Below are positions 2,422 through 18,995 of a stretch of DNA of 21,833 nucleotides, one piece after another. The position numbers and the translations under genes were made by a program. Position 1 is the stretch's first letter. Each line of letters starts with the position of its first letter. The notes beneath the pieces are model-generated. The model searched no databases. It saw nothing but the letters and a program-made list of their open reading frames with translations, and was not told where the DNA came from. The DNA is from a virus, in the IMG/VR virus record IMGVR_UViG_3300013093_000315, positions 1 through 21,833 of that record; one strand, 5' to 3'.

Positions 2422-2626
2422 AAAAAGGATGATCAATTTGTCCAGATACAGGCTCTCCGTTATTTTCAAATTGTGAGGGATCGACGAGTTGAGAATCGAT
2501 CTGCTTACGGATATTTTCCATCATAAAATATACCTCTCTGTATGGAAGCTGATCCAGCAGATCCAACAGTTTATTAGCGCCATTTATATCAAATTGCAAA
2601 TTGATTCTAAAATCTTCCATTTTCAT
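2417..2626 (-). CDS. Small conserved-type phage protein of unknown function, coupled to the radical SAM gene
   Basis: A 69-aa acidic protein without cysteine. Its start overlaps the stop of the radical SAM gene as ATGA; a second in-frame Met lies two codons further. The core (residues ~5-45: 'FRINLQFDINGANKLLDLLD', then 'QLPYREVYFMMENIRKQI') looks like a short beta segment followed by two helices. From memory this 'F.I...N.LL..L.QLPY..V..L...I..Q' pattern is common in small phage proteins of unknown function near structural genes. Its stop codon lies inside the gene 13 late promoter box. The tight coupling would permit a partner or accessory role to the enzyme, but nothing in the sequence shows that. 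Confidence 0.75.
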   Translation of the reverse strand: MKMEDFRINLQFDINGANKLLDLLDQLPYREVYFMMENIRKQIDSQLVDPSQFENNGEPVSGQIDHPFL

Positions 2627-3993
2627 GCTATAGCCTTTTCTCTGGTTTTTGGAACGATTGCTTTTGCTTCTTTATCGCCCCAGATGTTTTTCCTATGCTC
2701 TGGTAGAGCTTCGTTTTCTATGTAGTATGGCAAGAAACCAGTTAGTTTCTCCAATGCAACTGCGAAGAAAGGAATATGATCATCGTATGCATTGTTACAT
2801 GCACGCAGCCAGTAATTTTTTTCCAGATACATGCATGCTCCCTTGCATGTCTGAAGCACTGGGCAGTCAGAACATTCCTTACGTTTTGACCAATGAGTCG
2901 ACGTGTTTAGTTTGATGCTCTCAAACTTGGATACATGACCAATCATATGTGGTTTACCATTGGGAGCTGTAGAAACATTGGAAACATTCTGACATGTAAG
3001 AACGTAACCATTTAAGTCAACAGCAATCGTATCCACGCTGTCCATACCACATTTCTGTCCAAGCGAGGAAGCTGGTCGATTAGAAGAAATACTTTCAATC
3101 CATTCCTGTATACGATTACGAACAACAGCGAATGAATGATTTTTACCTTCGCGAGTTTGTTTCAATGTAAGGCGACGGAAACCAAGACTTTCTTCTTCGT
3201 TCTGAATACTGTTAGCAAGACCACCTTCATCATATGGATCAATAAAGCCACCCTCACCAATAGTAAATCCATTGATACCAAGCTCTTTATAAAAGTTAAC
3301 AAAAAAACTCTGAATAGCAGCGCGATCCATATTCTCGCGATTAACCATAGCATTAAAGCTGATACGGTTTTGTGGAGCAAGTCTTTTAATTAAGTCAATG
3401 ATGCCTTCTTTGGATATTATATCATCGAATGGATCTGGACCACGAACAGGCATTCCTGGACCATCATGAGACAACCCGATAAGAAATCCCATGCGATCGA
3501 TCCACTCATTAATTTCTTCATTCAGTAATGATCCATTTGTGACCATAACAAACTCAGCTTTTGGAAACTTCTCTCTCAGTTGTTCTGCTAATGGCTTCAA
3601 AGTTTTAATATAAACAAGTGGTTCACCACCCCAAAACTCAATACGTCTCGGAGATCCACGTAACCACGTGTCGAGATTCTTTATAAATTTATCAGCTGAT
3701 TTGTTGTTTGTTTCTTCGGCGTGTGGAACAAAGCGTTGTGAACAATACTCACAAGAATAGTTACAAGACAATCCGAGCTGAATTTTTAATGTTTCGATGT
3801 TGGAGCTTTTACCGAGTGGATTTTCTTTGGAAGTAACAGCTGCTTGTTTGTATTTTCTATTCTTCGTTTGTTCTTTTATTTGTGGAACAGCTATAACATT
3901 ACCACTTAAATCCGTTAACGAAGAAGTCATATTATCATAATAGAAAACACGTTCTTCCGCGCCTCTACGCGAGTGTATTTTAAATAAAGCCAT
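2623..3993 (-). CDS. Radical SAM/SPASM peptide-modifying enzyme (anaerobic sulfatase-maturase-like)
   Basis: A 456-aa radical S-adenosylmethionine enzyme. The CxxxCxxC motif that binds the SAM-cleaving 4Fe-4S cluster is C77/C81/C84 (SCNYSCEYC). The SAM-binding 'WGGEP' is at 121-125, followed by 'VTNGSLL' (151-157) and 'LSHDGPG' (174-180). The C-terminal SPASM domain is textbook: C315, then G329-x4-C334, then C374-x2-C377-x5-C383-x3-C387, then C399, seven Cys predicted to ligate two auxiliary 4Fe-4S clusters. Known SPASM enzymes modify peptides or proteins (formylglycine formation, thioether or C-C crosslinks, epimerisation), so a phage or host polypeptide substrate is likely. About 65 N-terminal residues precede the core; I see no clear RiPP recognition element. 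A strong AAAGGTGA ribosome binding site precedes the ATG. It lies two genes downstream of the Cys-Asn proteins, which are the obvious candidate substrates (inference). The reaction cannot be told from sequence. Confidence 0.93.
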   Translation of the reverse strand: MALFKIHSRRGAEERVFYYDNMTSSLTDLSGNVIAVPQIKEQTKNRKYKQAAVTSKENPLGKSSNIETLKIQLGLSCNYSCEYCSQRFVPHAEETNNKSADKFIKNLDTWLRGSPRRIEFWGGEPLVYIKTLKPLAEQLREKFPKAEFVMVTNGSLLNEEINEWIDRMGFLIGLSHDGPGMPVRGPDPFDDIISKEGIIDLIKRLAPQNRISFNAMVNRENMDRAAIQSFFVNFYKELGINGFTIGEGGFIDPYDEGGLANSIQNEEESLGFRRLTLKQTREGKNHSFAVVRNRIQEWIESISSNRPASSLGQKCGMDSVDTIAVDLNGYVLTCQNVSNVSTAPNGKPHMIGHVSKFESIKLNTSTHWSKRKECSDCPVLQTCKGACMYLEKNYWLRACNNAYDDHIPFFAVALEKLTGFLPYYIENEALPEHRKNIWGDKEAKAIVPKTREKAIA

Positions 3994-4014
3994 TTGTCAC
4001 CTTTCAATGATGTA

Positions 4015-4863
4015 TTATGGTTTTGTATACGTCAACGCAAATATTGAAGAAAACCATTTAAAACCAAATTTGATAGTCGCAGTTTCACCAGAAGTCATAC
4101 CAGCAGAGCTGAAATTAAATGTCGCTCTACCATTATTTAGAGCTACTTTATTTGGCGTTATACCATAATCGGAAGTAATGTAAATGTCAGCTACAGCATT
4201 GTTTGGAACTCCGACAATAATCTGACCGCCATCTGCATTTTGATTTAGAAAACGTGCACCAAGGTTTGGATAATAGTATCTTTTTGTTTCATACCCAGGA
4301 GTTAAAATAATGAATCGCTGAGTTTGCACATTCTGTGTAATATTAGAAGTAATGTTCGTATTTTGACCACCACTTATAGAAAAAAAACACTGTTTAAAAG
4401 AAGATGCTTCAGGAATTGTAACGAGTTGAAAAAATGAATTCCATGTTTTTGTTGGATTTAATACTACGTTATTCTTAATAAAATCAGAAAAACGCTGTTT
4501 GGTAACAGCTGTTTGTGGATATAAATTAAAAATTGGTTCATGATTGCCATATTTGTCAGCGTTCAAAATCCAACGATCGAATCCACTATACGTTGAATCA
4601 TTTTTAAGTTGATCCCAAGTAATTGTTGTTTTTTTCTCACCAACAAGACCGCCTGTATCATTAAGAACAGTTGGTGTATTTGTAGTAATCGTAATTTTTT
4701 GATCTTCAACTTGAACGTCAATCGAATTTAAAACACTCGCATAATCTTTGTAAACTACCATTCTGAACTGATCGTAATCAGAAATAAGCTGGTTGTATTG
4801 ATCAAGTGTTACAAGATCAAAAACATTTACCTGAGGAATTGTTAAATTGGCTAGATCAGTCAT
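4015..4863 (-). CDS. Putative virion / fibre-associated protein of unknown function
   Basis: A 282-aa protein I do not recognise. The N-terminal ~65 residues look helical (TIPQVNVFDLVTLDQYNQLI and following) and may form an assembly segment. The middle is mixed alpha/beta ('TITWDQLKNDSTYSGFDRWI', 'TKTWNSFFQLVTIPEA'). The last ~110 residues are Asn/Thr-rich beta-type ending in an Ig-like stretch ('ADIYITSDYGITPNKVALNN', 'ATFNFSSAGMTSGETATIKF'). It has a single cysteine, unlike its upstream neighbours. Its first eight bases overlap the end of the Hint-protein gene, and its ribosome binding site (TAGGAAA) lies inside that gene, indicating coupling. Position between the Cys-rich proteins and the radical SAM enzyme suggests a structural or partner role in the same tail element; this is inference. 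Confidence 0.8.
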   Translation of the reverse strand: MTDLANLTIPQVNVFDLVTLDQYNQLISDYDQFRMVVYKDYASVLNSIDVQVEDQKITITTNTPTVLNDTGGLVGEKKTTITWDQLKNDSTYSGFDRWILNADKYGNHEPIFNLYPQTAVTKQRFSDFIKNNVVLNPTKTWNSFFQLVTIPEASSFKQCFFSISGGQNTNITSNITQNVQTQRFIILTPGYETKRYYYPNLGARFLNQNADGGQIIVGVPNNAVADIYITSDYGITPNKVALNNGRATFNFSSAGMTSGETATIKFGFKWFSSIFALTYTKP

Positions 4864-6001
4864 TTTTGTTTCCTAATAGATTTGCTACAGACCCTACTAT
4901 CTTAAATGTAATATTGCAAACAACTTTACCTAATTTCCATTTAATTAAAGAGTTTGCGACTAATTTATTTAATATCTTAGAGTTTATTTTACCAAGTATA
5001 ATGCTGGTTAAATAAGCTCCATAATTTATATCTTTTCCAGAATTTGAATATCTGTAAAGTAATTCGTTTATATTTTCATTTGTGAGCAAACCCTGCTCGT
5101 ATGCGTAGCGCATGAACCCACCATCACCAATAATAGAAGTTGTACCATAACCATTTACGATATAAGTTCCATCTCCATCAACCCAAAGATTATATACCTT
5201 TTCGTCTGTCGAATCAACAATATTAACAATAGCAAATGGTTTATTTTTACCTAACCATGGATAAGAATCATAATTTTTATCAGGATCAACAGATGTTAAA
5301 CCTCCATTAGTATATAGAGGATGGTTTGATGTAGCGAATGGTTCAATGTTGTATGTTGGTGAATACAAATTTTGGAAATCTGAAGCGTTTGCACTTTCGA
5401 AATATACGACTGTATTTATTTGTGTTTTATCATGGTTGAAAACTTTGTCGCCAACTTTAATTTGACTGATCGGAACTTCTTCACCATCAGCAAGACAAAC
5501 CATAGTTTCTTCTGTAAAACAACCTCCCCCACAGTTACAGTTGCAGTTACAGTTGCAGTTTGTATAACAATTACCTACAGAGTTATATCCGCTGTTGCAG
5601 TTACAATTATAATAATTTCTCGTGTAATCTGTACCACGAATACGATCAATCAAAACGCTATACGCATCGTATATAAAAGTAACTTGAGCTACTGGATAAT
5701 ATGCTGTTGAACTTGGTAATTGAAAACCACCTGGATTACCACAGAGTCCAGGCATACCAGAAACACCCCATGTCCACCAGCTACCATTTGGTGGATTCCA
5801 GTAGCCATTTCCGTAACAGTTACCGCCTGGCAAAATACCAGTGCAGTTACCTGTTCTGTTATCTATATATGTGTTGTAACGTATACGCTGACCAATAGCT
5901 GTATCGCCAGCTATAAATCCCATACTATTGATATCTGTACCAGATGATATAGCTGCACCGCTATTATCATATGATGTGGTAGTGTTTATCTTCAAACTCA
6001 T
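4856..6001 (-). CDS. Cys-Asn tract protein fused to a Hint self-processing domain
   Basis: A 381-aa two-part protein. Residues 1-157 are paralogous to the 160-aa neighbour: both share 'GNCYGN.YWNPPNGSWWTWGV', 'DRIRG....R.Y.NCNC' and an alternating Cys-Asn tract (here C149, 151, 153, 155, 157). After GGG (158-160) a Hint (Hedgehog/intein) domain begins at C161 (CFTEETMVCLADGEEVPISQ, 'IKVGDKVFNHD'), with the block B 'TSNH' motif (T224, H227) and an 'YNLWVDGDGTYIVNG' block F-like strand (~270-284). The usual terminal His-Asn and downstream Cys/Ser/Thr of splicing inteins are not seen ('NGYGTTSIIGDGG'), so N-terminal cleavage as in Hedgehog-type proteins is more likely than splicing. A further ~80 residues (300-381) look helical and basic. 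Predicted result: release of the N-part with a Cys-Asn-Gly tail. The ribosome binding site TAGGAT includes the upstream gene's stop. Confidence 0.88.
   Translation of the reverse strand: MSLKINTTTSYDNSGAAISSGTDINSMGFIAGDTAIGQRIRYNTYIDNRTGNCTGILPGGNCYGNGYWNPPNGSWWTWGVSGMPGLCGNPGGFQLPSSTAYYPVAQVTFIYDAYSVLIDRIRGTDYTRNYYNCNCNSGYNSVGNCYTNCNCNCNCNCGGGCFTEETMVCLADGEEVPISQIKVGDKVFNHDKTQINTVVYFESANASDFQNLYSPTYNIEPFATSNHPLYTNGGLTSVDPDKNYDSYPWLGKNKPFAIVNIVDSTDEKVYNLWVDGDGTYIVNGYGTTSIIGDGGFMRYAYEQGLLTNENINELLYRYSNSGKDINYGAYLTSIILGKINSKILNKLVANSLIKWKLGKVVCNITFKIVGSVANLLGNKND
5519..5560 (-). other. Junction of Cys-Asn tract and Hint nucleophile
   Basis: Codons 148-161 of the Hint-fusion protein. Five Cys codons alternate with Asn in near-identical hexamers (TGT/TGC AAC), followed by three Gly codons (GGT GGA GGG) and the TGT codon of C161, the predicted N-S acyl-shift nucleophile. 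The scissile bond would be G160-C161. Family knowledge: the Hint active site uses the first Cys and the block B Thr/His, both present here. That cleavage actually occurs is inference. Confidence 0.65.
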
Positions 6002-6010
6002 TTATAAATC

Positions 6011-6493
6011 CTAGCAGTTGCAGTTACAATTGCAGTTACAATTACAGTTACAGTTGTTAAAAGAACCAAAATCGCTTGAGCAGTTGCAGTTGCTATAAGC
6101 ACGATGTATCTCTTGACCTCTGATACGATCATAAAGCAAATAATAGCCATCATATACTAAATTTACTGCTATATTATAAAAGTTGCAGTTTGTTTGACCA
6201 CCACCAAAATCATATCCATAATCGTTAGAGCAAAGACAGTTAACACCAACACCCCATGTCCACCAACTACCATTTGGTGGATTCCAATAAGGATTTCCGT
6301 AACAGTTACCACTTGGTAAATACCCACGACAATTGGTTGCAAGGTCGTCTGTGTATGTTGAATATCGAGCTAACTGACCGATGTCACCACCTTGTGTAAC
6401 AAATCCCATATTACCAGCATCACTACCGCTACGAGCCGAATAGTGAATATTACTGTTGTCGATTACTTGTGTGCCACCAACATAAAATGCCAT
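6011..6493 (-). CDS. Small Cys-rich protein ending in an alternating Cys-Asn tail
   Basis: A 160-aa protein with 14 cysteines. Its last 14 residues (147-160) are seven Asn-Cys pairs, ending with Cys at the very C-terminus. Other Cys are C55, C64, C86, C88, C103, C136 and C138. The body shares 'GNMGFV..GGDIGQ.ARY.TY', 'SGNCYGNPYWNPPNGSWWTW' and 'VYDGYYLLYDRIRG' with residues 1-157 of the downstream Hint-fusion protein, so the two are paralogs and this one has no Hint domain. I see no signal peptide. In an extended strand the tail would place all Cys on one face and all Asn on the other, suited to metal or Fe-S binding, disulfide zippers, or enzymatic crosslinking; which applies is unknown. The start is one base after the preceding stop, with AGGGTAA as ribosome binding site. 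Confidence 0.87.
   Translation of the reverse strand: MAFYVGGTQVIDNSNIHYSARSGSDAGNMGFVTQGGDIGQLARYSTYTDDLATNCRGYLPSGNCYGNPYWNPPNGSWWTWGVGVNCLCSNDYGYDFGGGQTNCNFYNIAVNLVYDGYYLLYDRIRGQEIHRAYSNCNCSSDFGSFNNCNCNCNCNCNCNC
6014..6055 (-). repeat. Hexanucleotide repeat encoding (Asn-Cys)7
   Basis: Seven imperfect copies of a six-base unit AA[C/T]TG[T/C] encode the C-terminal tail of the 160-aa protein, directly before its TAG stop. The unit is a multiple of three, so gain or loss of copies would alter tail length without a frameshift. Synonymous variation between copies (TGT/TGC, AAC/AAT) argues for selection on the protein pattern rather than very recent slippage. Confidence 0.85.
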
Positions 6494-6753: not shown

Positions 6754-8310
6754 TTAATTACCCTTTTCTAATTCAGCTACTCTCTGCTCGAGCTCTTTAA
6801 TAGCTTCAAGTAACAGAGGTACAAGTTTTTCGTATTGAACTGTGAGATATTTGTTATTACCTGGAGCTGGTTTAACTGCCTCTGGTAATATTGATTGCAC
6901 TTCCTGAGCGGAAACACCAACACGAGATAGTTGATTATTCTCGATACCAAGTTGAATTGCTGTGTCGTTAGGCATGTAGTAAAAACCATTAAGAGCTTTT
7001 ACTTTATTCAATGCATTATCGATATTATTGATGCGTGTTTTTAAACGATCGTCAGAATATGCAGTAACAACGTCGCCTGTAAAATAACCAGAACCTGTAA
7101 CGATAATTGGAGCTGAAATGGAGAAATTTGTTCCGTTCCAGTAAATGTACTTAGCACCACTATTACCAAAGAAAAGCGCTCCGTTATCTGGATAACCTGA
7201 ACCACTACGAGTTAAAGCAATGTCTCCAGTAAATGTACCACCAGAAAATGATACTTTACCATTAGTTAATGAATTAACATAAGTGTTTGTTGCAAATGTA
7301 CCATTAACATATGTGTTAGAAGCAGCATATGCTTGTGTTGCGAAAACCGAATATACTGCAGTGTTCTGAGCAAATGTTGAGAAAACAGCTGTATTCTGAG
7401 CAAAAGCAGCATATGCTGCAGTGTTCTGAGCAAATGTACCATTAACATATGTGTTAGAAGCAGCGTATGCAAGAGCGTTAGTATAAGCTGCTGTAGAGTA
7501 ACCAATCAATGTAGTAGCTGTGTTACCGTTCAGATAAAGAGCATTGTTTGCTACGATGTTTGGTTGTGAAACAGTTTGAAGTGTACCAGTAAGGTTTGTT
7601 GCATTTACGTTAATAACATTAATGTTTGCCCCGTTGATGGTTGTTGTACCACCAATCGTAACAGTTCCAGTAACAGCCAGTGTGTTTGAAAGAGATGTTG
7701 CACCAGTAACTGCTAATGTGTTAGAAAGAGCAACGTTACCAGCAATTATCGCAGAATTTGATATTGTAACATTTCCTGTCACTGACAGTGTATTTGCCAG
7801 AGTAGCAGCGCCAGTAACACCAAGCGAGCTAAAAAGATTAGCTGCAGCAGAAACACCAAATGTGGATAATACGTTGGCAGCACCAGTTACCGAAAGGGTA
7901 TTCGCAATTGTTGTTGCGCCAGTTACCGATAAAGTATTAGCGAAATTTACGTTCCCAGTTACTGAAAAGGTATTGACGAAAGTCGCGTTACCAGTTATAA
8001 TAACACTGTTAGCGAAAGATGCATTGCCAGTTACAGATAGAGTATTGCTAATAACTGTGTTGCCTGTAACAGCTAGAGTGTTGGATAGGGTTGCAGAACC
8101 AGTAACGGAGAGAGTATTCGCGAGCGTAGCAGCGCCTGTGGATCTGGTTGTTCCCGTCACAGAGAAATTACCCTGTACGTTGGCTGTACCAGTAATTGTT
8201 AAGTTAGCATCTGGTGTTGCGTTGCTAATACCAACTTTACCGCCAGTAGCGTAAATTAAATTGGTGTTGACAATAAGTCCGTTCTTGACGGTAAAATCTT
8301 TATCTGACAT
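6754..8310 (-). CDS. Tail fibre with 12-residue repeat stalk and C-terminal S74 peptidase/chaperone domain
   Basis: A 518-aa fibre protein. Residues ~1-40 are a short head (FTVKNGLIVNTNLIYATGG, 'VGISNATPDANLTITG') typical of phage fibre N-termini. Residues ~42-230 consist of about 15 copies of a 12-residue unit (consensus xxTxxNTLxVTG), expected to build a trimeric beta-helical stalk. Residues ~275-350 contain a second repeat (FAQNTAxYxx, 'AYAASNTYVNGTFA'). A 'GGTFTGDIALTRSG' beta region follows. The last 100 residues are an S74 intramolecular chaperone: S419-D-D-R-L-K424 carries the Ser and Lys of the proposed autocleavage dyad, then 'VGVSAQEVQSILPEAV' and a C-terminal coiled coil. Known S74 domains trimerise the fibre and then cut themselves off at the Ser. 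It has a strong GGGGAG ribosome binding site and its own late promoter, and is the first gene of its transcript. Confidence 0.93.
   Translation of the reverse strand: MSDKDFTVKNGLIVNTNLIYATGGKVGISNATPDANLTITGTANVQGNFSVTGTTRSTGAATLANTLSVTGSATLSNTLAVTGNTVISNTLSVTGNASFANSVIITGNATFVNTFSVTGNVNFANTLSVTGATTIANTLSVTGAANVLSTFGVSAAANLFSSLGVTGAATLANTLSVTGNVTISNSAIIAGNVALSNTLAVTGATSLSNTLAVTGTVTIGGTTTINGANINVINVNATNLTGTLQTVSQPNIVANNALYLNGNTATTLIGYSTAAYTNALAYAASNTYVNGTFAQNTAAYAAFAQNTAVFSTFAQNTAVYSVFATQAYAASNTYVNGTFATNTYVNSLTNGKVSFSGGTFTGDIALTRSGSGYPDNGALFFGNSGAKYIYWNGTNFSISAPIIVTGSGYFTGDVVTAYSDDRLKTRINNIDNALNKVKALNGFYYMPNDTAIQLGIENNQLSRVGVSAQEVQSILPEAVKPAPGNNKYLTVQYEKLVPLLLEAIKELEQRVAELEKGN
6757..7056 (-). 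other. S74 intramolecular chaperone autoprocessing domain (part of fibre)
   Basis: Codons 419-518 of the fibre. Autocleavage is expected at the Ser of SDDRLK. The Ser-Asp and the Lys five residues after the Ser match, from family knowledge, endosialidase-type and phi29 gp12-type S74 domains. The terminal 'LVPLLLEAIKELEQRVAELE' heptad pattern is the usual coiled coil. The mature fibre would therefore be about 418 residues. Confidence 0.85.
7620..8187 (-). repeat. 36-bp coding repeat array (12-residue stalk units)
   Basis: About fifteen degenerate 36-bp units encode the NTLSVTG-type stalk of the S74 fibre. Copies vary at synonymous and non-synonymous sites. The array leaves a long open frame on the opposite strand that is only a shadow. 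Such arrays are prone to recombination that changes stalk length in whole units. Confidence 0.85.
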
Positions 8311-8342: not shown

Positions 8343-8351
8343 TATTTATAG
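8343..8351 (-). promoter_or_regulatory. T4-type late promoter box CTATAAATA upstream of the S74 fibre gene
   Basis: The minus strand reads CTATAAATA, containing the exact T4 late consensus TATAAATA. It lies 33 nt upstream of the S74 fibre ATG, at the edge of the longest gap in the window (35 nt). It overlaps the TAA stop of the oxygenase gene in the register TA-TAA-ATA, the same arrangement as the gene 13 promoter. It probably starts a transcript covering the S74 fibre, the Cys-Asn proteins and the radical SAM gene. Confidence 0.78.
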
Positions 8352-8975
8352 TTCTACGTAGTTCCGCACGTCATCTATAACTTTTATATTTGTTACAAGA
8401 GCAATAAGGTCGATATCGGCTAAATTTAGCTCTGTTGTATGAAAAACACTAGCTGGATGAATTACAAAAGTTCCTGGTAATGGACGTATTGCACTCAACA
8501 TATTATGATTGAGGTAGCGATGGCGCATTGGCATTGGGTCGATCATATGTAGTCGATTACCAGCCATTTTCTGATGTACATTCGAACTATCATCGGTAAC
8601 ACCAACCTGTAAAAATAAAACAGCCACATAATCCACCGAGCGATGGTTGTGTGGTTTAGCGTATTCTTGTGGTCCAAACCGACGCATATTGGTAACAGCT
8701 TCAAATTTTACCTTTTCTGGCTCATTAAATCCTTCTGCCGTAGCTAATTCAATCATGCGCTGTTTTAAAATAGTTTTAAAGATTTGACAAGGTTGACGTT
8801 CGTCAGCTAACAAATTGTAAGATGTTTCTTTATTTTTCCTCATCGCATACGGGACGTGCGCCTCTGGATTCTGAGCTTCATACTCTGAACCAATTTCAAT
8901 CAGTTGGTTAAGAAACTGATCACCACTGATCTGATCTGTTAATATGTTTGTTGGCCATAAAGCTTTTACTGTCAT
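8346..8975 (-). CDS. Probable Fe(II)/2-oxoglutarate-dependent oxygenase
   Basis: A 209-aa protein resembling the small phage 2OG-Fe(II) oxygenases common in T4-like marine phages. Visible features are an N-terminal 'ALWPTNILTDQI' start, a metal site 'KPHNHRSVDYVAVLFLQV' (candidates H109, H111, D115) and the distal segment 'PGTFVIHPASVFHTTEL' (H179, possibly H173), equivalent to the family's 'PG.L..FPS...H.V'. The conserved Arg that usually binds the 2OG carboxylate ten or so residues after the distal His is not seen ('LADIDLIALVTNI'), so cofactor use may differ or the enzyme may be divergent. Such enzymes hydroxylate protein side chains or nucleobases; the substrate here is unknown. The start overlaps the upstream 249-aa gene (ATGA), and its stop is inside a late promoter. 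Placement among fibre genes hints at a virion protein substrate (inference). Confidence 0.75.
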   Translation of the reverse strand: MTVKALWPTNILTDQISGDQFLNQLIEIGSEYEAQNPEAHVPYAMRKNKETSYNLLADERQPCQIFKTILKQRMIELATAEGFNEPEKVKFEAVTNMRRFGPQEYAKPHNHRSVDYVAVLFLQVGVTDDSSNVHQKMAGNRLHMIDPMPMRHRYLNHNMLSAIRPLPGTFVIHPASVFHTTELNLADIDLIALVTNIKVIDDVRNYVEL

Positions 8976-9721
8976 ACTACTACCTTAAATTTTGAAATGT
9001 TTGGCCAGAACTTGTATCCAGCTTTTATTTCAACAATTTCACCTTTATATAACCCTTCAACATTTAAATTGAATTGAACTCCGCTTTTGCATTTTGTTCT
9101 GTTCAAAACACCAGCCGATGCCCAAAGATATATATCTGCCTGTGTGTCAGCTTCAACTACGTAGCAATGATCGGATATTTCTTTTATCGATATTGGTAGC
9201 CAATTATTTAAAAACTCTTTAATTGATTTCATAACATTTTGAGTTTGCTCGACATCATCTATAAAAAATTTGTGTGTTGTTCCAGCATGTTCGTAATCAA
9301 CGCTATGATAAACAATCGTACAATCGTTGTAAAAACAATTTTTATATGGAGTTAGAACGAAAAGAATAGGAATAAGATTAAGCTGAGTCATCGCCCATGC
9401 GGGAGATGCGATGTTATGTTTTCCCTCTCCGTTTAAATCTGTATTCGTAGAGTATTCAGAATTGTAAAGGGAACTGTAAGATTTACCAAATGGAGCTCTG
9501 TATGGTTTTGTAAATCTTGTTGTTTCATACCAAACCATTTCGAGTGTTTTCTTATCATAACCCAAAGCTATACAGCCATGATCTTCCGAATAACTATCGA
9601 TAATTTTTTGTAAGTAAAATGTTTGAATATCATCAGATCTTTTAACGATTAAAGTACTATCGTTCAATCGCATTTCTGTTGAAAATGTTAACATTTTCCT
9701 GTTATTAACAAATAAATTCAT
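8972..9721 (-). CDS. Protein of unknown function upstream of the oxygenase
   Basis: A 249-aa protein I do not recognise. Unlike its Asn/Thr-rich neighbours it has an ordinary globular composition, with charged residues, five Cys and several aromatic clusters: 'HGCIALGYDKKTLEMVWYET', 'PYRAPFGKSYSSLYNSEYST', 'SPAWAMTQLNLIPILFVLTP', 'HSVDYEHAGTTHKFFIDDVE'. No transmembrane segment or signal peptide is clear. Composition and the ATGA overlap with the oxygenase suggest an enzyme or accessory factor acting together with it, rather than a fibre. The start lies nine bases after the giant LamG gene stop; only a weak ribosome binding site (GGATAT) is present. Confidence 0.75.
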   Translation of the reverse strand: MNLFVNNRKMLTFSTEMRLNDSTLIVKRSDDIQTFYLQKIIDSYSEDHGCIALGYDKKTLEMVWYETTRFTKPYRAPFGKSYSSLYNSEYSTNTDLNGEGKHNIASPAWAMTQLNLIPILFVLTPYKNCFYNDCTIVYHSVDYEHAGTTHKFFIDDVEQTQNVMKSIKEFLNNWLPISIKEISDHCYVVEADTQADIYLWASAGVLNRTKCKSGVQFNLNVEGLYKGEIVEIKAGYKFWPNISKFKVVV

Positions 9722-9730
9722 GAAAACAAA

Positions 9731-12700
9731 TTATATCCAAATTTCACTAATAGTTCCACCACCAGAAACAGTTACTGGTGTAACAGTACTTGTTATGTAT
9801 ATTTGCTGCGTGTTAGCATAAACGTATTTAGCGTTCGCAGCGTATATTTGAATTGTAGATAAATTAGCCATAGCTGATTTGTTAATTAAAGGTACGTTGA
9901 TATACGAAATGATTGAACTGTTTGTAGTAATAACTGGTTGTTTAGAGCCTGTTACTGTTAACGTATTCGAATTACCAAACGGACTATTCATTACCATAGT
10001 TGGGCTATATCTGTTTGACTGTGTAATTAGATTGTTATACTGAGAACTATCGATAACAGCTTCTGCCGCGAAAGGATTCTTATTTACAAAGAAAGTTGGA
10101 TTTCCAACTGGTGTTGAGTAACCATTCGAATAACCAGAAATAACATCGAAATATAAACCAGCATCAGACAAAGACAAATAAGAAGTTGTTCCGAAATTGA
10201 TACCGTTCGTAATGTTAAATGGTTCGGTCGGTGGTGTAAAATTGGATGTGTAAAGCGCAACAAATTTTGTAATACGAAGATTTGACAAATAACCATCAAA
10301 CTGTTGAGTATTGTTTGTTTGATAACCATCAGAATTGCCGATAGAAAACAATGTACCAATTGATGGACTTGGAGCTGCTATAACACTTCCTGCAATAACA
10401 CCATTAACAAAAAATGTTAATAATCCAGATTTTCTTACCCATGCCACATGATACCAGTTGTTTATAGACATATTGTGGTTAGCATTGCTTATGTATTGCA
10501 CGCCAGCAAATTGCATAAACATTTTGGTTCTACCAATAAAGAAAGCCATACCATCAGTATAAGATCCACCACTTGTTGTACCAACAATATAAAAACCAGA
10601 TCCAATAGTATCACCAGCTGGTAATGATGTTAAATTAACCCATCCTTCAACTGTAAAATCGAGATAACCAAAACCAAATGGAGCTCCACCCAAATTACCG
10701 TAAGTTGTAGCCATGTAATTGTTGTTAAGCTTATCAAAGCGGAAACTTTGACCTGTTGAAGTTCCTTGTCCAATTAACAACAGATTGTTTATATTGTTTG
10801 GATCAGTTGGGTTAGAAGGAACAGTTCCTGGAGTAAATATCGTTGTAACAGTGTTAGAAAATGTTGGGCTGTTGTTAGTTGAAATAACGTTGCCCCATGA
10901 GCCTACACCATACACCGAAAGGTTATTTGTTATAGTAAAGTTGTTTGATGAGTTATCAATTATCGCTGTATTTTGAGCTGTTAACAGTACTGTGTTACTG
11001 ATAGCTGTAAGAGGAGCTGATGGAGTAGTAAAGTTTGTCGTATAAACGCCTGTACCTTTTACAATACGGAAGTTAGACATATAACCTTGCCAGTTAAATG
11101 TATTTCCAGTTCCACCAGTAGCGCCAATTGGTTTAGAGTTCGCATCAGTATAGTTGTTTGTATCTGATGTATTACTACCAATAATTGTACCATTCAGATA
11201 CATGTTCGAATTACCAGAAACACGCGAAACAGCAACATGCGACCAAGTTCTTAATGGTAATTGGGTTGATGTTGATATTACGTTACCAGAGTCAGTAGCA
11301 TAAACTAATCCAGTGTTGCTCCATGCTAACCATGGTGATGTTGCAGAACCACTCTTATAACCCCAGATCCAATAATACGAATAAGAAGAATTACTAGTCA
11401 CATTAGTTGGTCCAAAACCAACAGGATAAACCCATGTTTCAAGCGTAAAGTCGCCAGTACCAAAAGAAAACGCTGAGTTAGCTGGTGTTGAAAGGAATGT
11501 GTTCGAACCATCGAAATAATAACTATTCGATGTTACACGTGTTTGAATTATATTGGAGTTAGCAATTCTTAAATTGCTTACGTAGCCATTGAAAAAATTA
11601 TTTACACCACCAAGCTGAGAAGCACCAACGTAAATTAAAGTTGATGAGTTACCAAAAACATTAGAATATGCAATAGTGTTTGAAAGAGAACTGTTTGTAT
11701 AAAGATATACGTTAGCAGAATCTTTTACAATAGTAACATATGTCCAAGTGTTTGGAGTTATAGATGGACCAGTAATTATGTTGTTTCCATCATATGAATA
11801 GGTAAGTGTACCATTATTCATATACAAATTCCAGTTACCTAAACCACCAGTATTTGAAGATAGCTGATCGATAATAACAGAGTTACCAGTATTAGAAGTT
11901 GGATATATCCATGCATCTATAACAGCATTAGAAAAACTGCCATATTGGAAAGATGTTACTTGGAAATTATTACCATATCCAAAAGTTGATAAACTATATC
12001 CTACGTTTGCACCAAAATAACCAGAAGAATCAGTTAAAATATTATTCTGTGAGGTTATTAAATATGTTTGTGCTGTAGAGTTTGAAACTGGCAACAGTGG
12101 AGATGTCGGTACAGGAATAGATGCTATTGGGGTTGTATTTGAAGCTGATGGATAAACAAGCGTGTTGCTAACACGAAGATTACTTACATAACCATGAATA
12201 AAACTGTTATTCCATTCTCCAATGTTTATATAACATTGAGGACCAGCTTCGTAATCAGTTGTGTTTATAGTGGCTGAATATGGAATACCGTCAACATACA
12301 ATGTTAAATTATAACCATTTTTTACTGCAGCAATATGAGTCCATTTACCAACAGGAATTGTTGTTGGATGTATAACAGAAATAGCAGATCCAGTCCAAAT
12401 ATAAAATACCAACTGGCCATTTAAGTTCGGACCAAAAGACCATTGAAGGTATGTGTTATTGATTGTACCATAACCTATTAGTCCACTTTGAGTAGTGCTG
12501 TTACCCCAGTTTGATGAAAATGAAAGAGGATATATCCAAGCCTCGATACAAAACTGTTGTAAAATAGGAAGAGAACTTAATAATTTCCATTGACCAGGTG
12601 CGATTGTCGGTTGTCCAGCAATCCCCTGAGTGCCATTGAAATAATAACTATAAGTTCCAGAAAAAGGAACAACAGTATTTGAAAATCCAACAGAACCACC

Positions 12701-15700
12701 ACTCCAAACAGTACTACCAATCGGATCATTAAATGGTGTTTTAATACTCGCAATATTAGCAGTAAGCAAAATTGTTGTATTGCTGGTAGGTAATAATGGA
12801 GCAGTTGGAACAGTAATAGTAGATGCTGTTGAATCGTATGCGTTCGAAAAACCACTTACTCTTATATTCGACAAATAACCCTTGAAAGCTGATGTTGTAG
12901 TATTACCAGCAATGTAGTTTATAGAACCAAATGATGTTGTGATTGCAACGTTACCAGTTGTTGATTTCGTACCATTGACAAAAACAGTAGTTGCGTTTGT
13001 AGTTGGATTTCTATTTACTGCGATATGGTACCAAGTATTACCAGCCAAGGTAACAGGAGAAGTAAAGTTTGTACCAGAAACAGAAAAATTTGTTGTGTTT
13101 GTAGCAGTAAGGTAAAATGGTGATCCTAAGCTGCTGCTTACAAGCTGATATGGGAAAACGTTGTTGTTGAAATAAGCAAACATTTCAACTGTAAAACCAG
13201 AAGAAAAGTTAGGAAACGCTAAAGAACCAAGAGATTGCAATATTTGGGACTGGCCATCAAATTCAAAACTAAACGTATTAGCAAAAGGAATTATGTTGGT
13301 ATTTGTTTTTACTCCAAGCCATGGAGAAGAAGTAAAACCATAACTACGTAGTAATGTTGAGTTGGCAGTTGCAGCATCATTTAAATTGCCCATCGTTTGA
13401 CAGGTAAGAATAGTTGTAGTAGCAGTAGAGTTACTGATATATGTTAAGTTTGCTGTAGGTGGTGTGAAGTTAGTGGTATAAAGAGCGCTACCATTTATAA
13501 CTCTGAGATTTGAAATATAACCATTAAAATAAGAGACCTGGTTTGTTTCAGAACCAATGTAAGTGTTCGAACCAAGACCTGTTGAGTTAGCAAACGTGTT
13601 ACTACCGATCGATGTACCATTTACATAAAATGTAACAACACCATTGTTTCTAACATAAGCAAGATGATACCAAGTATTTGCAGAAATTCCGTGTACGTTT
13701 GTCGACAGATACTGAACATCGTTTACCTGAATACTAAGATGTTGCGAACCAATTAAACAATCAATACCATCTGCTAAAGATGGCGTACCAGTTCCAACAA
13801 GAACAAAGGTGTTAGAAGCTTGTGCTGGCCAAGTATCCTGAGTTGGTAAACCAGTAAGGTTAACGAACGCCTCAACAGTAAAGTTATTTGTACCAAAATG
13901 CATTGGCAACATATCGCGCTGAGATAATGTAGTTGAAACTGTATTTGTAAAACGCCAGCTCGCAGCAGGAGTAAATGGAACAACAGTATTAGAAAACTGA
14001 ATTGTTGAAGAAACAATGATGTTGTTTGTTGAACTATTATCAATCAAAATTGGTGACTGCGCAGTAAGTAATGTTGTATTGGTTGAAGCAGTTAATGCTG
14101 TATTTGATGGTGTAAAATTAGTTGTATAAAGCGCATTACCTTTTGTAATACGAATATTTGAAATGTATCCTTCAAAATAAGTGCATGACTGTCCTTGTTC
14201 GTTACCAATAACAAGAGCTTTACCACCATCTGTAATGGTTGCTGAGAGAGCTTGTGTATTAGCAAGAACACCATTTACCCAAAGATTTAATGTTGTTCCC
14301 TGTTTTGTTGCTGCGATATGATTCCATGTTCCAAAATTTATTGCAACGTTCGAATAAATTTGTTGTATTGAGGTAACACCATTACCACTACCAACACGAA
14401 ATGCTGGATACCACCATCCACTACCAGAAGTAAAAGCAGAAGGACTAAGGTATAAATTATAAGATGGATATGTTGAACCAGAAACACCATCTTTATCTAA
14501 TATCGATTGTATGTTAGTATTACTGTTTGAAGGACCAATTGCTTCAGAAAAAACATATGCTTCAACAGTAAAATCGCCAGATGATAAATTTAAATTAGCA
14601 TTGTATGTTACGTTTGCTTGTGATGTACCATTAAAATAAATGCTATACGTATTTGGGAATGGAGTATCTGTGTTTGTAATAATAGGTCCAGTAGGAACCC
14701 ATGGTGTATTGTTTGGATTGTTTGGACTATTGTCGATAAGAGTATTCGACTGCGCTGTCAACATTAATGTTGAACTGTTTCCAGTTAAAGCTGTTGTTGG
14801 TGGTGTGAATGATTTGTATACTGCACCTTTAGTAATACGAACATTTGAAACATAACCATCCATTTTATCAATGTTTGAAGTCCAATATGGTACTGATGCT
14901 CCACTTTGGAAACTATAATACGTATTACTTGATGGTCCAGAATAATTTGTTGTTGTTGTACCTTGTAGAATACCATCAACATACAAAAATGTTACACCAA
15001 GATATCTTTGAACAACACAATGATGCCATTGTCTTGGAATTAATGGAGGAGCGTTAATATATAATGTTCCATTAATTGCGAAATGAAGACTGTTAACATA
15101 TTGTTCTAGATAAACTCTATTTGATGTTGTATTATCATTTAATTCAAAAAGCGTATAATACTGATTTAATGTAGCAGCTGATTGATTTTGTTCGTTTATG
15201 TACGCCCAGCACTCCATTGTAAAATCATGGTTATTAAAATCAAAAGTCGAATATGAAATAGTAACAGGAACAAGGTTAGCATAACCTGTATTCGAAATCG
15301 TAAGGTTAAATGGACTTTGATCTGTTAATGAAGAAGAGTTAAAGGTTAACAGCGAAAGATTTGTTGATGTTGTATTACTGAATGTAGAATTCGGTGGAAT
15401 AAAGTTTGAGTTGTATACTGTATTACCATTCGTAATTCTAAGATTTGAAATATATCCTTTAAATGCACTGTTAGATGCAGTATTTCCATCGCCTGGATAT
15501 GCGTCAATTCCAATAGTTAAAGCATTGTTAGTATACCAAAATGGAATACTATAATTAGTAGCATTAGCTGTAGTTGTTGATATTAATGAACCATTTCTAT
15601 ATAAACGGAATGCTCTATCATTTTTAACTAAAGCTAAATGAGACCAAGTATTAATTGGAAGAGTTCCATATCCTATATTTGTATCATTACCTACCGCGCC

Positions 15701-17155
15701 AAGACCATTAACAATTCCTAGACCATAACCACCATTATTAATGTTTTGACCAATTCGAACATAATTTCCAACCGATTGGTTTATTGAATTCGAATTTAAT
15801 TCTAAAAAAGAAGTCCAGTTTGTAGAAGGAGCAGCAGTTGGATATGTCCAAAATTCAATACAAAAGTTATTACTACCAAAATTAAAAGCTGATGTATTAG
15901 CAATAGAAAAAGAACTGTTTCCTGTCATATAAACAGCATATGTGCTAAATGATCCTGTTGATGATAGTGCCGTATTTTGTTGAATGTTTGTTGATGTGTA
16001 AAGAGTAACATTGCTTACTGGTACAGGAAGGTTACCTGGATTACCATATGTTGCTGTTGTATTGTAATTTATTGGATTGTTTGGATTTAATGATGAAGGA
16101 TCAGCACCAGTTCCGAATGATGTATCTTGTAAAGAAGGATACTGCAATCCTAAAAATAGTATCTGAGTGTTTGGAGAAACATAATCTGATAAAGGTAACT
16201 GCGGTGGAGTAAACACAGTATTAGGCGCATAAATTACGTACTGCCCGTTTGTATTATTTGCTTGAGTACTTGTTGAAAATCTAAAATTAGATAGATAGGC
16301 GTTTAACGGCTGTGTCAACGAACTGCCGTTCATAAGAACGCCAATAACCAATTGGTTATTGGAAGGAAAATTTGTTGTATATGTTAAGTTACCAAAATTT
16401 AATGTATTACTATAATAAGTTGGATATCCATTAATCCATGTGCAAATACCGTTGGTGCTTGTTCTTGAAAGAACAACGTGATTCCAAACACCATGAGGAA
16501 TATAACCTACAGTTTGGTTTATCGTCCATGATGTACCAGTATTACTCATTAAAAGTGTTAAAGAGCTACCGTTTGCAGCTGCAGCAGCATCAAGTCTTAC
16601 TGTTCCATATGAATTGTTTGTTGAATTTTGATTAAGAATAAAAATTGTACCATTTGTATTAGCTTGTTTATTGATATAAAATTCAATACAAAACTGGTTT
16701 AAACCAGTTCCAAATTCGTTACCTGTTCTATCGTTCCAAGCTAATATATCATTAACACCATTAAAATAATATGCGTAACTGTTACCTACGTTATACCCAG
16801 GTGCGAAAATAAATGATTGAGAATTATAAGAAGATGCATACTGTATAGCATTAGCAATAAACGGAGGTGCTATGTTAGCCATTGTCTGATAGTTGAACGA
16901 TGAATTAACAGTCAGATAATCGCTTGTACCATTAAAGAGAATACTACCGCCTTGCAAATTTGCAGTCTTATTTAAAGTTACTGTGTTTGCGCGAGAAAAA
17001 ATTACGTTACCAGAAAACACATTACCAGAAACAGCATACGTAGAAAACACAGGAGTTTCAAACTTGTCAACACTTTCATATTGATTGTTTGAACTTCTTG
17101 TTGAATTTACTACCAGATTTGCTGCGCTGAATATTGCGTTTACTAAAACTGTCAT
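9731..17155 (-). CDS. Giant tandem-LamG adhesin (2474 aa, about ten LamG-like domains)
   Basis: A 2474-aa protein that takes up a third of the window. It contains about ten LamG/concanavalin-A-like jelly-roll domains. Each opens with 'FNG...' and 'F(C/T)(I/V)E.(W/F).(Y/N)', has a central 'W.H(V/I)A..R....T.(Y/W)VNG' and closes with 'GY(I/V/L)SN(L/I/F)R(I/V)'. Approximate domain spans are 130-300, 415-590, 635-790, 850-1015, 1080-1230, 1310-1440, 1520-1670, 1730-1870, 1895-2045 and 2155-2310. Linkers carry 'LLTAQS..LIDNS.N', a pattern I associate with aquatic-phage tail proteins. An isolated 'FNGTSDYLTVN' at 74-84 looks like a truncated extra domain. LamG folds bind glycans, so binding to host surface polysaccharide or virion decoration is likely. 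The gene begins one base after the preceding stop with no clear Shine-Dalgarno, suggesting translational coupling. The C-terminus ends 'PVTVSGGGTISEIWI'. Confidence 0.9.
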   Translation of the reverse strand: MTVLVNAIFSAANLVVNSTRSSNNQYESVDKFETPVFSTYAVSGNVFSGNVIFSRANTVTLNKTANLQGGSILFNGTSDYLTVNSSFNYQTMANIAPPFIANAIQYASSYNSQSFIFAPGYNVGNSYAYYFNGVNDILAWNDRTGNEFGTGLNQFCIEFYINKQANTNGTIFILNQNSTNNSYGTVRLDAAAAANGSSLTLLMSNTGTSWTINQTVGYIPHGVWNHVVLSRTSTNGICTWINGYPTYYSNTLNFGNLTYTTNFPSNNQLVIGVLMNGSSLTQPLNAYLSNFRFSTSTQANNTNGQYVIYAPNTVFTPPQLPLSDYVSPNTQILFLGLQYPSLQDTSFGTGADPSSLNPNNPINYNTTATYGNPGNLPVPVSNVTLYTSTNIQQNTALSSTGSFSTYAVYMTGNSSFSIANTSAFNFGSNNFCIEFWTYPTAAPSTNWTSFLELNSNSINQSVGNYVRIGQNINNGGYGLGIVNGLGAVGNDTNIGYGTLPINTWSHLALVKNDRAFRLYRNGSLISTTTANATNYSIPFWYTNNALTIGIDAYPGDGNTASNSAFKGYISNLRITNGNTVYNSNFIPPNSTFSNTTSTNLSLLTFNSSSLTDQSPFNLTISNTGYANLVPVTISYSTFDFNNHDFTMECWAYINEQNQSAATLNQYYTLFELNDNTTSNRVYLEQYVNSLHFAINGTLYINAPPLIPRQWHHCVVQRYLGVTFLYVDGILQGTTTTNYSGPSSNTYYSFQSGASVPYWTSNIDKMDGYVSNVRITKGAVYKSFTPPTTALTGNSSTLMLTAQSNTLIDNSPNNPNNTPWVPTGPIITNTDTPFPNTYSIYFNGTSQANVTYNANLNLSSGDFTVEAYVFSEAIGPSNSNTNIQSILDKDGVSGSTYPSYNLYLSPSAFTSGSGWWYPAFRVGSGNGVTSIQQIYSNVAINFGTWNHIAATKQGTTLNLWVNGVLANTQALSATITDGGKALVIGNEQGQSCTYFEGYISNIRITKGNALYTTNFTPSNTALTASTNTTLLTAQSPILIDNSSTNNIIVSSTIQFSNTVVPFTPAASWRFTNTVSTTLSQRDMLPMHFGTNNFTVEAFVNLTGLPTQDTWPAQASNTFVLVGTGTPSLADGIDCLIGSQHLSIQVNDVQYLSTNVHGISANTWYHLAYVRNNGVVTFYVNGTSIGSNTFANSTGLGSNTYIGSETNQVSYFNGYISNLRVINGSALYTTNFTPPTANLTYISNSTATTTILTCQTMGNLNDAATANSTLLRSYGFTSSPWLGVKTNTNIIPFANTFSFEFDGQSQILQSLGSLAFPNFSSGFTVEMFAYFNNNVFPYQLVSSSLGSPFYLTATNTTNFSVSGTNFTSPVTLAGNTWYHIAVNRNPTTNATTVFVNGTKSTTGNVAITTSFGSINYIAGNTTTSAFKGYLSNIRVSGFSNAYDSTASTITVPTAPLLPTSNTTILLTANIASIKTPFNDPIGSTVWSGGSVGFSNTVVPFSGTYSYYFNGTQGIAGQPTIAPGQWKLLSSLPILQQFCIEAWIYPLSFSSNWGNSTTQSGLIGYGTINNTYLQWSFGPNLNGQLVFYIWTGSAISVIHPTTIPVGKWTHIAAVKNGYNLTLYVDGIPYSATINTTDYEAGPQCYINIGEWNNSFIHGYVSNLRVSNTLVYPSASNTTPIASIPVPTSPLLPVSNSTAQTYLITSQNNILTDSSGYFGANVGYSLSTFGYGNNFQVTSFQYGSFSNAVIDAWIYPTSNTGNSVIIDQLSSNTGGLGNWNLYMNNGTLTYSYDGNNIITGPSITPNTWTYVTIVKDSANVYLYTNSSLSNTIAYSNVFGNSSTLIYVGASQLGGVNNFFNGYVSNLRIANSNIIQTRVTSNSYYFDGSNTFLSTPANSAFSFGTGDFTLETWVYPVGFGPTNVTSNSSYSYYWIWGYKSGSATSPWLAWSNTGLVYATDSGNVISTSTQLPLRTWSHVAVSRVSGNSNMYLNGTIIGSNTSDTNNYTDANSKPIGATGGTGNTFNWQGYMSNFRIVKGTGVYTTNFTTPSAPLTAISNTVLLTAQNTAIIDNSSNNFTITNNLSVYGVGSWGNVISTNNSPTFSNTVTTIFTPGTVPSNPTDPNNINNLLLIGQGTSTGQSFRFDKLNNNYMATTYGNLGGAPFGFGYLDFTVEGWVNLTSLPAGDTIGSGFYIVGTTSGGSYTDGMAFFIGRTKMFMQFAGVQYISNANHNMSINNWYHVAWVRKSGLLTFFVNGVIAGSVIAAPSPSIGTLFSIGNSDGYQTNNTQQFDGYLSNLRITKFVALYTSNFTPPTEPFNITNGINFGTTSYLSLSDAGLYFDVISGYSNGYSTPVGNPTFFVNKNPFAAEAVIDSSQYNNLITQSNRYSPTMVMNSPFGNSNTLTVTGSKQPVITTNSSIISYINVPLINKSAMANLSTIQIYAANAKYVYANTQQIYITSTVTPVTVSGGGTISEIWI
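10240..16770 (-). repeat. Array of ten diverged LamG-domain repeats
   Basis: The ten domain units of the giant adhesin are recognisable by the recurring codons for GY(I/V/L/M)SN(L/I/V/F)R(I/V), centred near 15445, 14847, 14160, 13515, 12870, 12185, 11580, 11077 and 10287, with the divergent first copy AYLSNFRF near 16300. Unit spacing varies from roughly 500 to 850 bases because linkers differ. Copies are clearly diverged, pointing to old duplication. Confidence 0.8.
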
Positions 17156-17156
17156 T

Positions 17157-18995
17157 TTATATGTTTATGCTCGGAATTAGAGAACTTGTACCACCAGAGG
17201 TAACAGTAATACTTAGTTGTGTATCTGCAGAGTTACTTGTGGTGATTGTTGCTGATTTAGCACCATTGGCGAAAATCATACTATATCCGTCAATTGTAAA
17301 TGTTAAGTTAGCAACCATTCTGTTGTTACTGTTATCGTATGCATTCACGTTAGCTGTTATGCTTACGTTCGAGCCAGCATATATCGGATTACTGTTCGAG
17401 TATACAATACCAATACTTGTTGGAACAGCTGAGTTAGAAGTCGGAGAAACGATATGTAAAGATCCAGGATCTGGGTTACCGTTATCTGCGACATACGCCC
17501 AGCAACGTGCTGTTTGATCAAAACCAACACTGGCTATGCGTCCTGGATAAAGTGAAGCAAAAGTCCAACCAGATGTTGTATTAAAGTTATACCAGTTTAC
17601 GCCTCTGTAGTTAACAACAGCCAACACGTTACTGTTCGCAGGAGAAGCGATATACGTATGAGGAAAGTCAGTAATATTCGGGAACGTCAATGCGCTGTGG
17701 AATGTTAACACGTTGTCATTTGATGTTGCGACAGAGCCAATTTGGAATGTTAGCCATGTGCGCGCGAGCGTGTTCGCGAAACGAGTTGCCGAGTTACTAA
17801 CCCAGCCAGCTCCCATATCGTTATGAGTAAATGTGATATAGTTGTTTGAACCAACTGAAAATTGATATGGACGATAGAACCAGATATTATTAAGCAATGA
17901 TGTTGCGTTGGTATTTGCACCGTGAGCTGCATAGTTAGCATATGTGTTAGCTCCAGGATATGACATTGTGCAGTTAACTTTGGAGATATTTCCAACCTGT
18001 CCTGGACCCCAAATATATTGAACTGGTGCTAAGTTATTTGACGAATCCCAATGCATCGTATAGAACACTTTTCGAGTAGTGCTGTCTGTACGAATGTTAG
18101 AAGGGATTGTCATATTATAGGTTTGAGAATTAGATGTTGCAGGTAACTGAGCAGAAACGACTGCAGTAACAGCTTTTGATGATGCGTTAACATACGAAAC
18201 AGTAATTGGTTCATTAGCTGTGTTATGTTGAGTTTGAACAAAATATGGGTTATTGTTTGAATCTCTACCCATAAAGAGATAATCCATCTGCGCAGTACCA
18301 GTAATCTGTGATTGACCGATAGAGGATTGAGAGGTATAGTTATTTGATGCTGTGATATAATTACATGAACCGCAAATTGAAGTTTGTGTCCAAATTTGTG
18401 GTGGTGAAGATACAGTATCTTCATAAAGGAACATATTACCAAAAAAATATTGGTTAAAGGCAGAACCATAAGTTGTTGACTGTAATGCATTTTGAGTAAT
18501 ATCAGAACCCCAAAGCCCACCATAATTCGAATTGCTAGGAGTATTATTATATGCTATAGAAATTCCATAAAAATAGTTATTACCAGTAATAGCCATCATT
18601 GGTCGAACAGGATTGTTAATTGGATCCATATTCCAATGATATTGATTACCCCAGCCTCTATTAAACCATTGTGCTCCAGGAGTTGCGCCGTCTTCTACCC
18701 ATGCAGTTCCAGAAACTGCATGATTGTAAAGATACATAATACCTTGATTTTGTGAAAACCAACCATTGTATGCAGTATTAATTGAGAACAAATAACGATT
18801 GTTAAAATGAAATCTTTCTTGAGGAAGGAAAGCAAGACTGTTAACATCGTATGGCTGTTTGTCAATAAAAATTCTTGAATTACCTAAATTTATATCTTCA
18901 ATGACAAAAATTTGCCCTGTTTCACCAATCGGATATGTAGTTGATGGCTGAGTAAAAACAGCTGGAGAATTTCTATTTACAGCAAATTGAACCAT
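17157..18995 (-). CDS. Putative adhesin / fibre protein with Ig-like C-terminus (paralog of upstream gene)
   Basis: A 612-aa protein clearly paralogous to the 629-aa protein upstream. Shared blocks include 'G(R/S)(L/I)FI..Q..DV.SL', 'NNPYF......NEPITVSYVN', 'SNIRTDSTTRKVFYTMHWD', 'NLAPVQYIWGPGQVG', 'NCTMSYPGANT' and 'ARTWLTFQIGS'. The C-terminal ~100 residues (from ~510) form an Ig-like module ending 'FANGAKSATITTSNSADTQL'. The central part resembles a multi-bladed beta structure with repeated aromatic/Gly strands (inference only). It has no enzyme motif I can name. The start has a TAAGGT ribosome binding site. The stop is one base before the giant LamG gene. It is probably a virion surface protein for host binding. 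Confidence 0.82.
   Translation of the reverse strand: MVQFAVNRNSPAVFTQPSTTYPIGETGQIFVIEDINLGNSRIFIDKQPYDVNSLAFLPQERFHFNNRYLFSINTAYNGWFSQNQGIMYLYNHAVSGTAWVEDGATPGAQWFNRGWGNQYHWNMDPINNPVRPMMAITGNNYFYGISIAYNNTPSNSNYGGLWGSDITQNALQSTTYGSAFNQYFFGNMFLYEDTVSSPPQIWTQTSICGSCNYITASNNYTSQSSIGQSQITGTAQMDYLFMGRDSNNNPYFVQTQHNTANEPITVSYVNASSKAVTAVVSAQLPATSNSQTYNMTIPSNIRTDSTTRKVFYTMHWDSSNNLAPVQYIWGPGQVGNISKVNCTMSYPGANTYANYAAHGANTNATSLLNNIWFYRPYQFSVGSNNYITFTHNDMGAGWVSNSATRFANTLARTWLTFQIGSVATSNDNVLTFHSALTFPNITDFPHTYIASPANSNVLAVVNYRGVNWYNFNTTSGWTFASLYPGRIASVGFDQTARCWAYVADNGNPDPGSLHIVSPTSNSAVPTSIGIVYSNSNPIYAGSNVSITANVNAYDNSNNRMVANLTFTIDGYSMIFANGAKSATITTSNSADTQLSITVTSGGTSSLIPSINI

Follow-up and report, generated by a model that had tools for sequence, protein, structure and literature searches.

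A radical SAM/SPASM enzyme encoded with Cys-Asn tail proteins in a T4-like phage fibre operon, a candidate cassette for modifying fibre-tip proteins

The operon and its radical SAM enzyme

The stretch of viral DNA analysed here (the window) covers 21,833 nt, positions 1 to 21,833 of IMG/VR record IMGVR_UViG_3300013093_000315, and holds a gene cassette, all on the minus strand, in which a radical S-adenosylmethionine (rSAM) enzyme with a SPASM domain is encoded together with two proteins that carry alternating Asn and Cys residues. The enzyme (456 amino acids, 2623..3993) is the proposed maturase, and the two proteins, termed here tail protein 1 (160 amino acids, 6011..6493) and tail protein 2 (381 amino acids, 4856..6001), are its proposed substrates; between tail protein 2 and the enzyme lies a partner of the IGP family (282 amino acids, 4015..4863) with a C-terminal Ig-like domain. 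Between 6752 and 2417 the genes overlap or stand no more than about 20 bp apart, an operon-like layout that bears out the shared operon claimed in a preliminary description of this DNA. That description had also given both proteins Cys-Asn tails, which holds for tail protein 1, whose N-terminal domain is followed by a C-terminal (Asn-Cys)7 (6014..6055), whereas the (Asn-Cys)5 stretch of tail protein 2 (5531..5560) is internal, lying behind the N-terminal domain and followed by GGG, a Hint (intein-like) domain with Cys161 as its predicted nucleophile (5140..5521, the downstream end being approximate) and a C-terminal extension.

Profile searches matched the enzyme to PF04055 (E 8e-9, above the cut-off), to phrog_1802 (E 3e-66) and to the SPASM profile TIGR04085. 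Its CxxxCxxC core (C77, C81 and C84) and all seven SPASM cysteines (C315, C334, C374, C377, C383, C387 and C399), whose completeness the preliminary description had pointed out, were located and found to be invariant among 57 aligned homologues, and the sequence conforms to the SPASM membership pattern CX9-15GX4C-CX2CX5CX3C-C. The homologues further share the group signature SHDGP....RG.DP, QKCGMD and TCQN. The AlphaFold2 (AF2) model of the enzyme (mean predicted local distance difference test score, pLDDT, 95) had CteB, a peptide maturase that forms thioethers, as its top PDB match (Foldseek E 1e-13; Z 23.4 over 355 residues), followed in order by ChlB, anaerobic sulfatase-maturating enzyme (anSME) and TigE, with the epimerase EpeE/YydG ranking lower (Z about 12.7). 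Among NCBIfam profiles, that of the PapB ranthipeptide maturase (NF047865) scored highest, yet with 71.9 bits stayed far below its cut-off (340); the SCIFF-type maturase profile TIGR03974 (40.6 bits, cut-off 425) and the QhpD profile TIGR03906 (60 bits, cut-off 453) likewise stayed below threshold. Since the structural matches are led by CteB and the PapB profile falls far short of its cut-off, the enzyme is a SPASM protein of the peptide- or protein-modifying kind that stands outside every named family. A viperin-like function was considered and rejected, viperins aligning to the core barrel only (Z about 15).

Co-occurrence of the enzyme with Cys-rich tails

A search with the rSAM enzyme retrieved 75 loci in viral_contigs and 79 in bacterial genomes, isolates of Limnohabitans and Burkholderia and Rhodobacteraceae genomes included. 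After de-duplication, 113 loci with at least 5 kb of upstream sequence were compared with 85 control loci, each 7 kb or longer, that had been selected by a (Ser-Asn)4 pattern, (SN)4. A protein with a C.C.C motif was encoded on the same strand in 97 of the 113 (4 of the 85 controls), and an open reading frame (ORF) with at least four alternating Cys in 77 (none of the controls). The opposite strand of the rSAM loci gave a C.C.C protein in 25/113, but it is an unfair control because reverse-complemented TGYAAY repeats encode Cys-Ser runs in one frame, and independent loci were therefore used instead.

The association was also found in the other direction, starting from DNA alone. When 2.9 million viral contigs were scanned for a (Cys-Asn)4 pattern, (CN)4, an open frame that fits the pattern was present at 84 loci. 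Of these, 66 had an rSAM gene, whether within the locus itself or on another part of the contig, compared with 0/120 loci and 0/30 whole contigs for the matched (SN)4 control. Thirteen of the 18 loci without rSAM were short, low-complexity or unrelated frames, and the other five encoded substrate-like proteins on fragments. A search by substrate alignment found rSAM in 48 of 52 loci, a figure that is not fully independent because one of its two patterns includes the Cys motif. The preliminary description had asked whether the enzyme occurs widely in phages that lack a (CN)n protein, and the outcome was the opposite. Its link between enzyme and substrate, drawn from operon position and Cys content, is now supported beyond operon position by this two-way co-occurrence across diverse phages, and the joint occurrence of a conserved enzyme and a Cys-rich substrate gene, a mark of systems of the type of ribosomally synthesized and post-translationally modified peptides (RiPPs), is seen here against (SN)4 controls.

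Relatedness among many of the loci means that the counts are not independent events, and the case therefore rests on the diversity of genomic contexts and of N-terminal domains. T4-like phages share the pairing of enzyme and tail with the 82-kb JWF-group phages, with prophage-type loci found in Limnohabitans and Burkholderia, and with genomes of Rhodobacteraceae; the carriers in culture include Achromobacter phages JWF (gp28-gp30) and 2-1 as well as prophages of isolates. The tail-bearing proteins, of about 75-1100 amino acids, show at least five unrelated types of N-terminal domain. This diversity bears on the idea that the rSAM gene is unrelated cargo, or an auxiliary metabolic gene, hitchhiking with one fibre module: phage fibre genes do travel as modules and many loci are interrelated, but the partners carry unrelated N-terminal domains in T4-like, JWF-type and prophage settings, and a Cys-Asn pattern in DNA alone retrieves the same enzyme family. 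Hitchhiking is largely refuted by these results, and we regard it as highly improbable.

Sequence rules of the tails and the domains behind them

The tails are written in intermixed TGT/TGC and AAC/AAT codons, and the repeat is therefore conserved as protein and is not a DNA microsatellite; an origin by chance or as a microsatellite was rejected on the mixed codons and the (SN)4 control loci. Tail proteins 1 and 2 have homologous N-terminal domains, to which proteins of other phages are related too, and the positions of Asn-Cys within these domains are conserved. Asn also precedes Cys outside the runs, at 246 of 390 isolated Cys (Asn background 8%), the residue after Cys being variable. Within the (Cys-X)n runs, X is Asn 467 times, Ala 141, Asp 84, Ser 30 and Lys 26, with a few others. 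Tail composition (Ala-rich or Asn-rich) changes 16 times on the rSAM tree, a count that has no shuffled baseline and was for that reason not used as evidence of co-evolution. A tblastn search with both window tail proteins against annotated phages gave no match, given low-complexity filtering and divergence, and a collection scan with tail protein 2 alone returned one locus.

Such a tail might instead be a metal-binding, Fe-S-binding or disulphide-bonded tip, the rSAM enzyme acting on another member of the cassette such as the IGP protein. With alternating residues every Cys would point to the same side of a strand, the tips of fibres are trimers, the setting also includes S74 domains, and the tip of the T4 long fibre has His-X-His iron sites. 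Two findings speak against it, namely that an IGP protein is present in only 71 of 111 loci whereas the tail is a near-constant partner of the enzyme, and that single Asn-Cys pairs at a distance from the tail obey the same rule, which metal binding does not predict. We consider a metal or disulphide tip improbable.

The position of the tail was assessed in 176 tail-bearing loci. In 137 of these, the longest run stops no more than 12 residues before the C-terminus; in most of the others it leads straight into a Hint domain (21 loci) or a further Cys run lies nearer the end. The window Hint profiles are below Pfam cut-offs (E 5e-5 to 8e-4) and start at residue 159-161; in the homologue at locus L001, Hint is above the cut-off (E 5e-12, start 306). 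On the rSAM tree the presence of Hint changes no fewer than nine times. In two loci (L070, and L118 from outside the 176-locus set) an S74 domain (PF13884) stands directly behind the tail, and in five (L026, L031, L041, L043 and L046) the (CX)n tail is followed by another C-terminal domain (CSKIIC.KL...), for which no Pfam match was found.

From its sequence, the Hint domain is predicted to cut itself off behind the tail. It shares with Hedgehog/intein-like domains (Hint and bacterial intein-like domains) the Cys nucleophile and a Hint profile, placed immediately behind the phage tail, but release is expected in place of splicing because neither the C-terminal splice Asn nor an extein was seen. 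S74 domains are intramolecular chaperones, and their removal in L070 and L118 would bare (CK)n or (CN)n and not an ordinary fibre end. Two unrelated self-removing domains occupy the same place, which suggests that the mature protein needs its tail at the C-terminus.

Across 111 non-identical rSAM loci, part of them from the set chosen by (CN)4, the usual gene order is one or more tail proteins, the IGP partner, zero to five 2-oxoglutarate (2OG)-Fe(II) oxygenases and the rSAM enzyme; the IGP protein usually lies between tail protein and enzyme, and 2OG-Fe(II) oxygenases occur in 49 of the loci. The AF2 model of the IGP protein (pLDDT 78) gave no confident PDB match, and its alignment was too divergent to serve for a collection scan. 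The preliminary description had missed the Hint and S74 domains that follow the tail, the placing of Asn before Cys, the Ig-like partner and the 2OG oxygenases.

In the window, the oxygenase (8346..8975; PF13759 E 9e-6, just below the cut-off; phrog_81 E 1e-9) is a possible second modifying enzyme. It adjoins a second IGP-family protein (249 amino acids, 8972..9721), which clusters with the 4015-4863 protein, so that each enzyme of the operon has an IGP protein beside it, as if one served each. Transcription runs from LamG-repeat and fibre-like proteins through this 249-amino-acid protein, the oxygenase, a tail fibre with an S74 chaperone domain (6754..8310; PF13884 E 1e-10 and phrog tail-fibre matches) and an 85-amino-acid protein to tail protein 1, tail protein 2, the 282-amino-acid IGP protein, the rSAM enzyme, a 69-amino-acid ORF and T4-type neck and sheath genes. 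With Ad2 (phrog_211), Hc2 (phrog_460) and a sheath stabiliser (phrog_227) downstream and the S74 fibre upstream, the T4-like fibre context noted earlier is well founded. At the upstream end, a 2474-amino-acid protein (9731-17155) with ten Laminin_G_3 (concanavalin-like) repeats is probably a very long fibre or adhesin, and two adjacent paralogues of 612 and 629 amino acids (17157-18995 and 19005-20894) both match phrog_20698, all three genes being on the minus strand.

Elsewhere the cassette has further members, among them a fatty-acid desaturase in L026 (E 2e-12), a tryptophan halogenase in L070 (E 5e-77) and a RimK-type ATP-grasp protein in L010 (E 4e-11). Desaturase-like genes lie between or beside the rSAM and tail protein genes in L026 (11443-12899), L031, L073 and L130. 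In L070 (3146-9790), a 264-amino-acid (Cys-Lys)n protein, which has 27 Cys in alternation as well as an S74 domain, stands beside 2OG oxygenases, the halogenase and the rSAM enzyme. Three or four rSAM genes, together with small (CN)n proteins (67-79 amino acids), are found in L080 and L100 and on the contigs of L104, L111, L148 and L162.

Proposed modification of the tail tips

Taken together, we think it probable that this widespread phage cassette modifies fibre- or tail-tip proteins post-translationally, the rSAM enzyme forming thioethers on Cys and Hint or S74 domains exposing the modified tail. The enzyme would act on Cys preceded by Asn, less often by Ala, Asp, Ser or Lys, both in the scattered pairs and in the (Cys-X)n tail, and the product would be a series of thioethers joining the sulphur of Cys to a carbon atom in a residue close by, as known from ranthipeptides and quinohemoprotein amine dehydrogenase. 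The Hint domain, or S74 in some other phages, would then cut itself away directly after the tail, leaving a mature protein with the modified stretch at its C-terminus, with the 2OG-Fe(II) oxygenases and the Ig-like partner probably assisting. That the tails are what the enzyme modifies, we infer from the co-occurrence set out above; a location at the virion tip is suggested by the fibre-type N-terminal domains, the S74 domains, the T4-like gene neighbourhood and the annotation under which JWF gp28 is deposited (Hint family, T4 gp36-like).

Thioether formation is the most likely chemistry on the fibre-tip tails. The enzyme's nearest structures, headed by CteB, are RiPP maturases. Asn and Asp, the commonest and third commonest X in the runs, are known thioether acceptors, in NxxcA (Cys-Asn) and freyrasin (Cys-Asp), and QhpD performs thioether chemistry on a protein subunit (PMC8326336). 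Ranthipeptide and SCIFF maturases (CteB, PapB and the NxxcA maturase) share with the phage system the rSAM core, the seven-Cys SPASM domain and a Cys-rich ribosomal substrate encoded next door; their substrates are small leader-core peptides, however, whereas those of the phage are fibre-type proteins with C-terminal tails, and the phage enzyme is far below the family cut-offs, and no RiPP recognition element (RRE) or leader was recognised. QhpD, the quinohemoprotein amine dehydrogenase maturase, is likewise a SPASM enzyme and makes several Cys-Asp/Glu thioethers, but the phage enzyme does not reach its profile cut-off, and substrate, partners and host context differ.

The enzyme might act on the tails by another reaction, either epimerisation, giving alternating L and D residues as in proteusins, or oxidation of Cys to formylglycine or another product, with a reactive or unusually folded tip as the result. 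Iterative epimerisation would match the strict alternation, and EpeE/YydG is among the lower-ranked structural matches, but CteB exceeds it clearly (Z 23.4 vs 12.7). For formylglycine, anSME is among the closest structures, sharing the fold and the seven-Cys SPASM domain, and the JWF enzyme was formerly annotated as sulfatase-maturating. However, the Asp beside a SPASM Cys in anSME, its catalytic base, is Gln in the phage enzyme (Q335, 97% conserved across the family), which makes this route less likely, and the phage tails lack the substrate motif C-X-[AP]-X-R. Cys is moreover kept everywhere without a pattern of substitution by Ser, which suggests that the sulphur is retained. A reaction of either kind seems unlikely to us, if less far-fetched than a metal-binding tip.

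Several points weigh against thioether modification of the tails. Ala and Lys at the X positions of the runs fit a simple Cys-to-Asn/Asp rule poorly, and the tail proteins have no recognised leader peptide. The best-scoring family profile, that of PapB, is far below its cut-off, and a Pfam scan of the enzyme found no PqqD/RRE match, its residues 1-60 forming three strands and one short helix in the AF2 model, smaller than a full winged-helix RRE. The case is drawn entirely from genes and models. Finally, no tail was detected in 16 of the 113 rSAM-selected loci, although some of these are artefacts of the ORF-overlap filter (L033 and L041 do carry tails) and several belong to a separate non-phage clade (Variovorax, Ramlibacter and others), in which the rSAM gene lies beside a YcaO-nitroreductase fusion.

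These closest chromosomal relatives of the phage enzyme thus adjoin a gene typical of RiPP clusters, which counts in favour of the proposed modification. The YcaO-nitroreductase-linked relatives are L349, L354, L356, L362, L368 and L369, the fusion domains being confirmed in L349, L356, L362 and L368, and they are apparently undescribed chromosomal RiPP clusters.

The enzyme class, Hint and S74 are known kinds; what appears to be new is that a RiPP-like cassette of several enzymes would have a structural protein of a phage as its substrate. In line with the novelty anticipated in the preliminary description, no account of radical SAM maturation of phage tail proteins was found in the open-access PubMed Central literature. 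To our knowledge, radical SAM maturation of phage virion proteins has not been recognised, and we know of no precedent for a virion-borne RiPP. In a broader form the proposal would be that several phage lineages carry (Cys-X)n tail tips that are polythioether or otherwise backbone-modified, made by a line of rSAM enzyme and 2OG oxygenases, sometimes with a desaturase or halogenase, exposed through Hint or S74, and serving receptor binding or envelope penetration; on this we are evenly divided.

If true, the proposal would describe a tip chemistry unknown from any virus, would account for a large unannotated group of phage rSAM genes (phrog_1802) and would provide many natural enzyme-substrate pairs for peptide engineering. 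Confirmation of the modification would show that a new kind of chemistry takes part in the encounter between phage and host.

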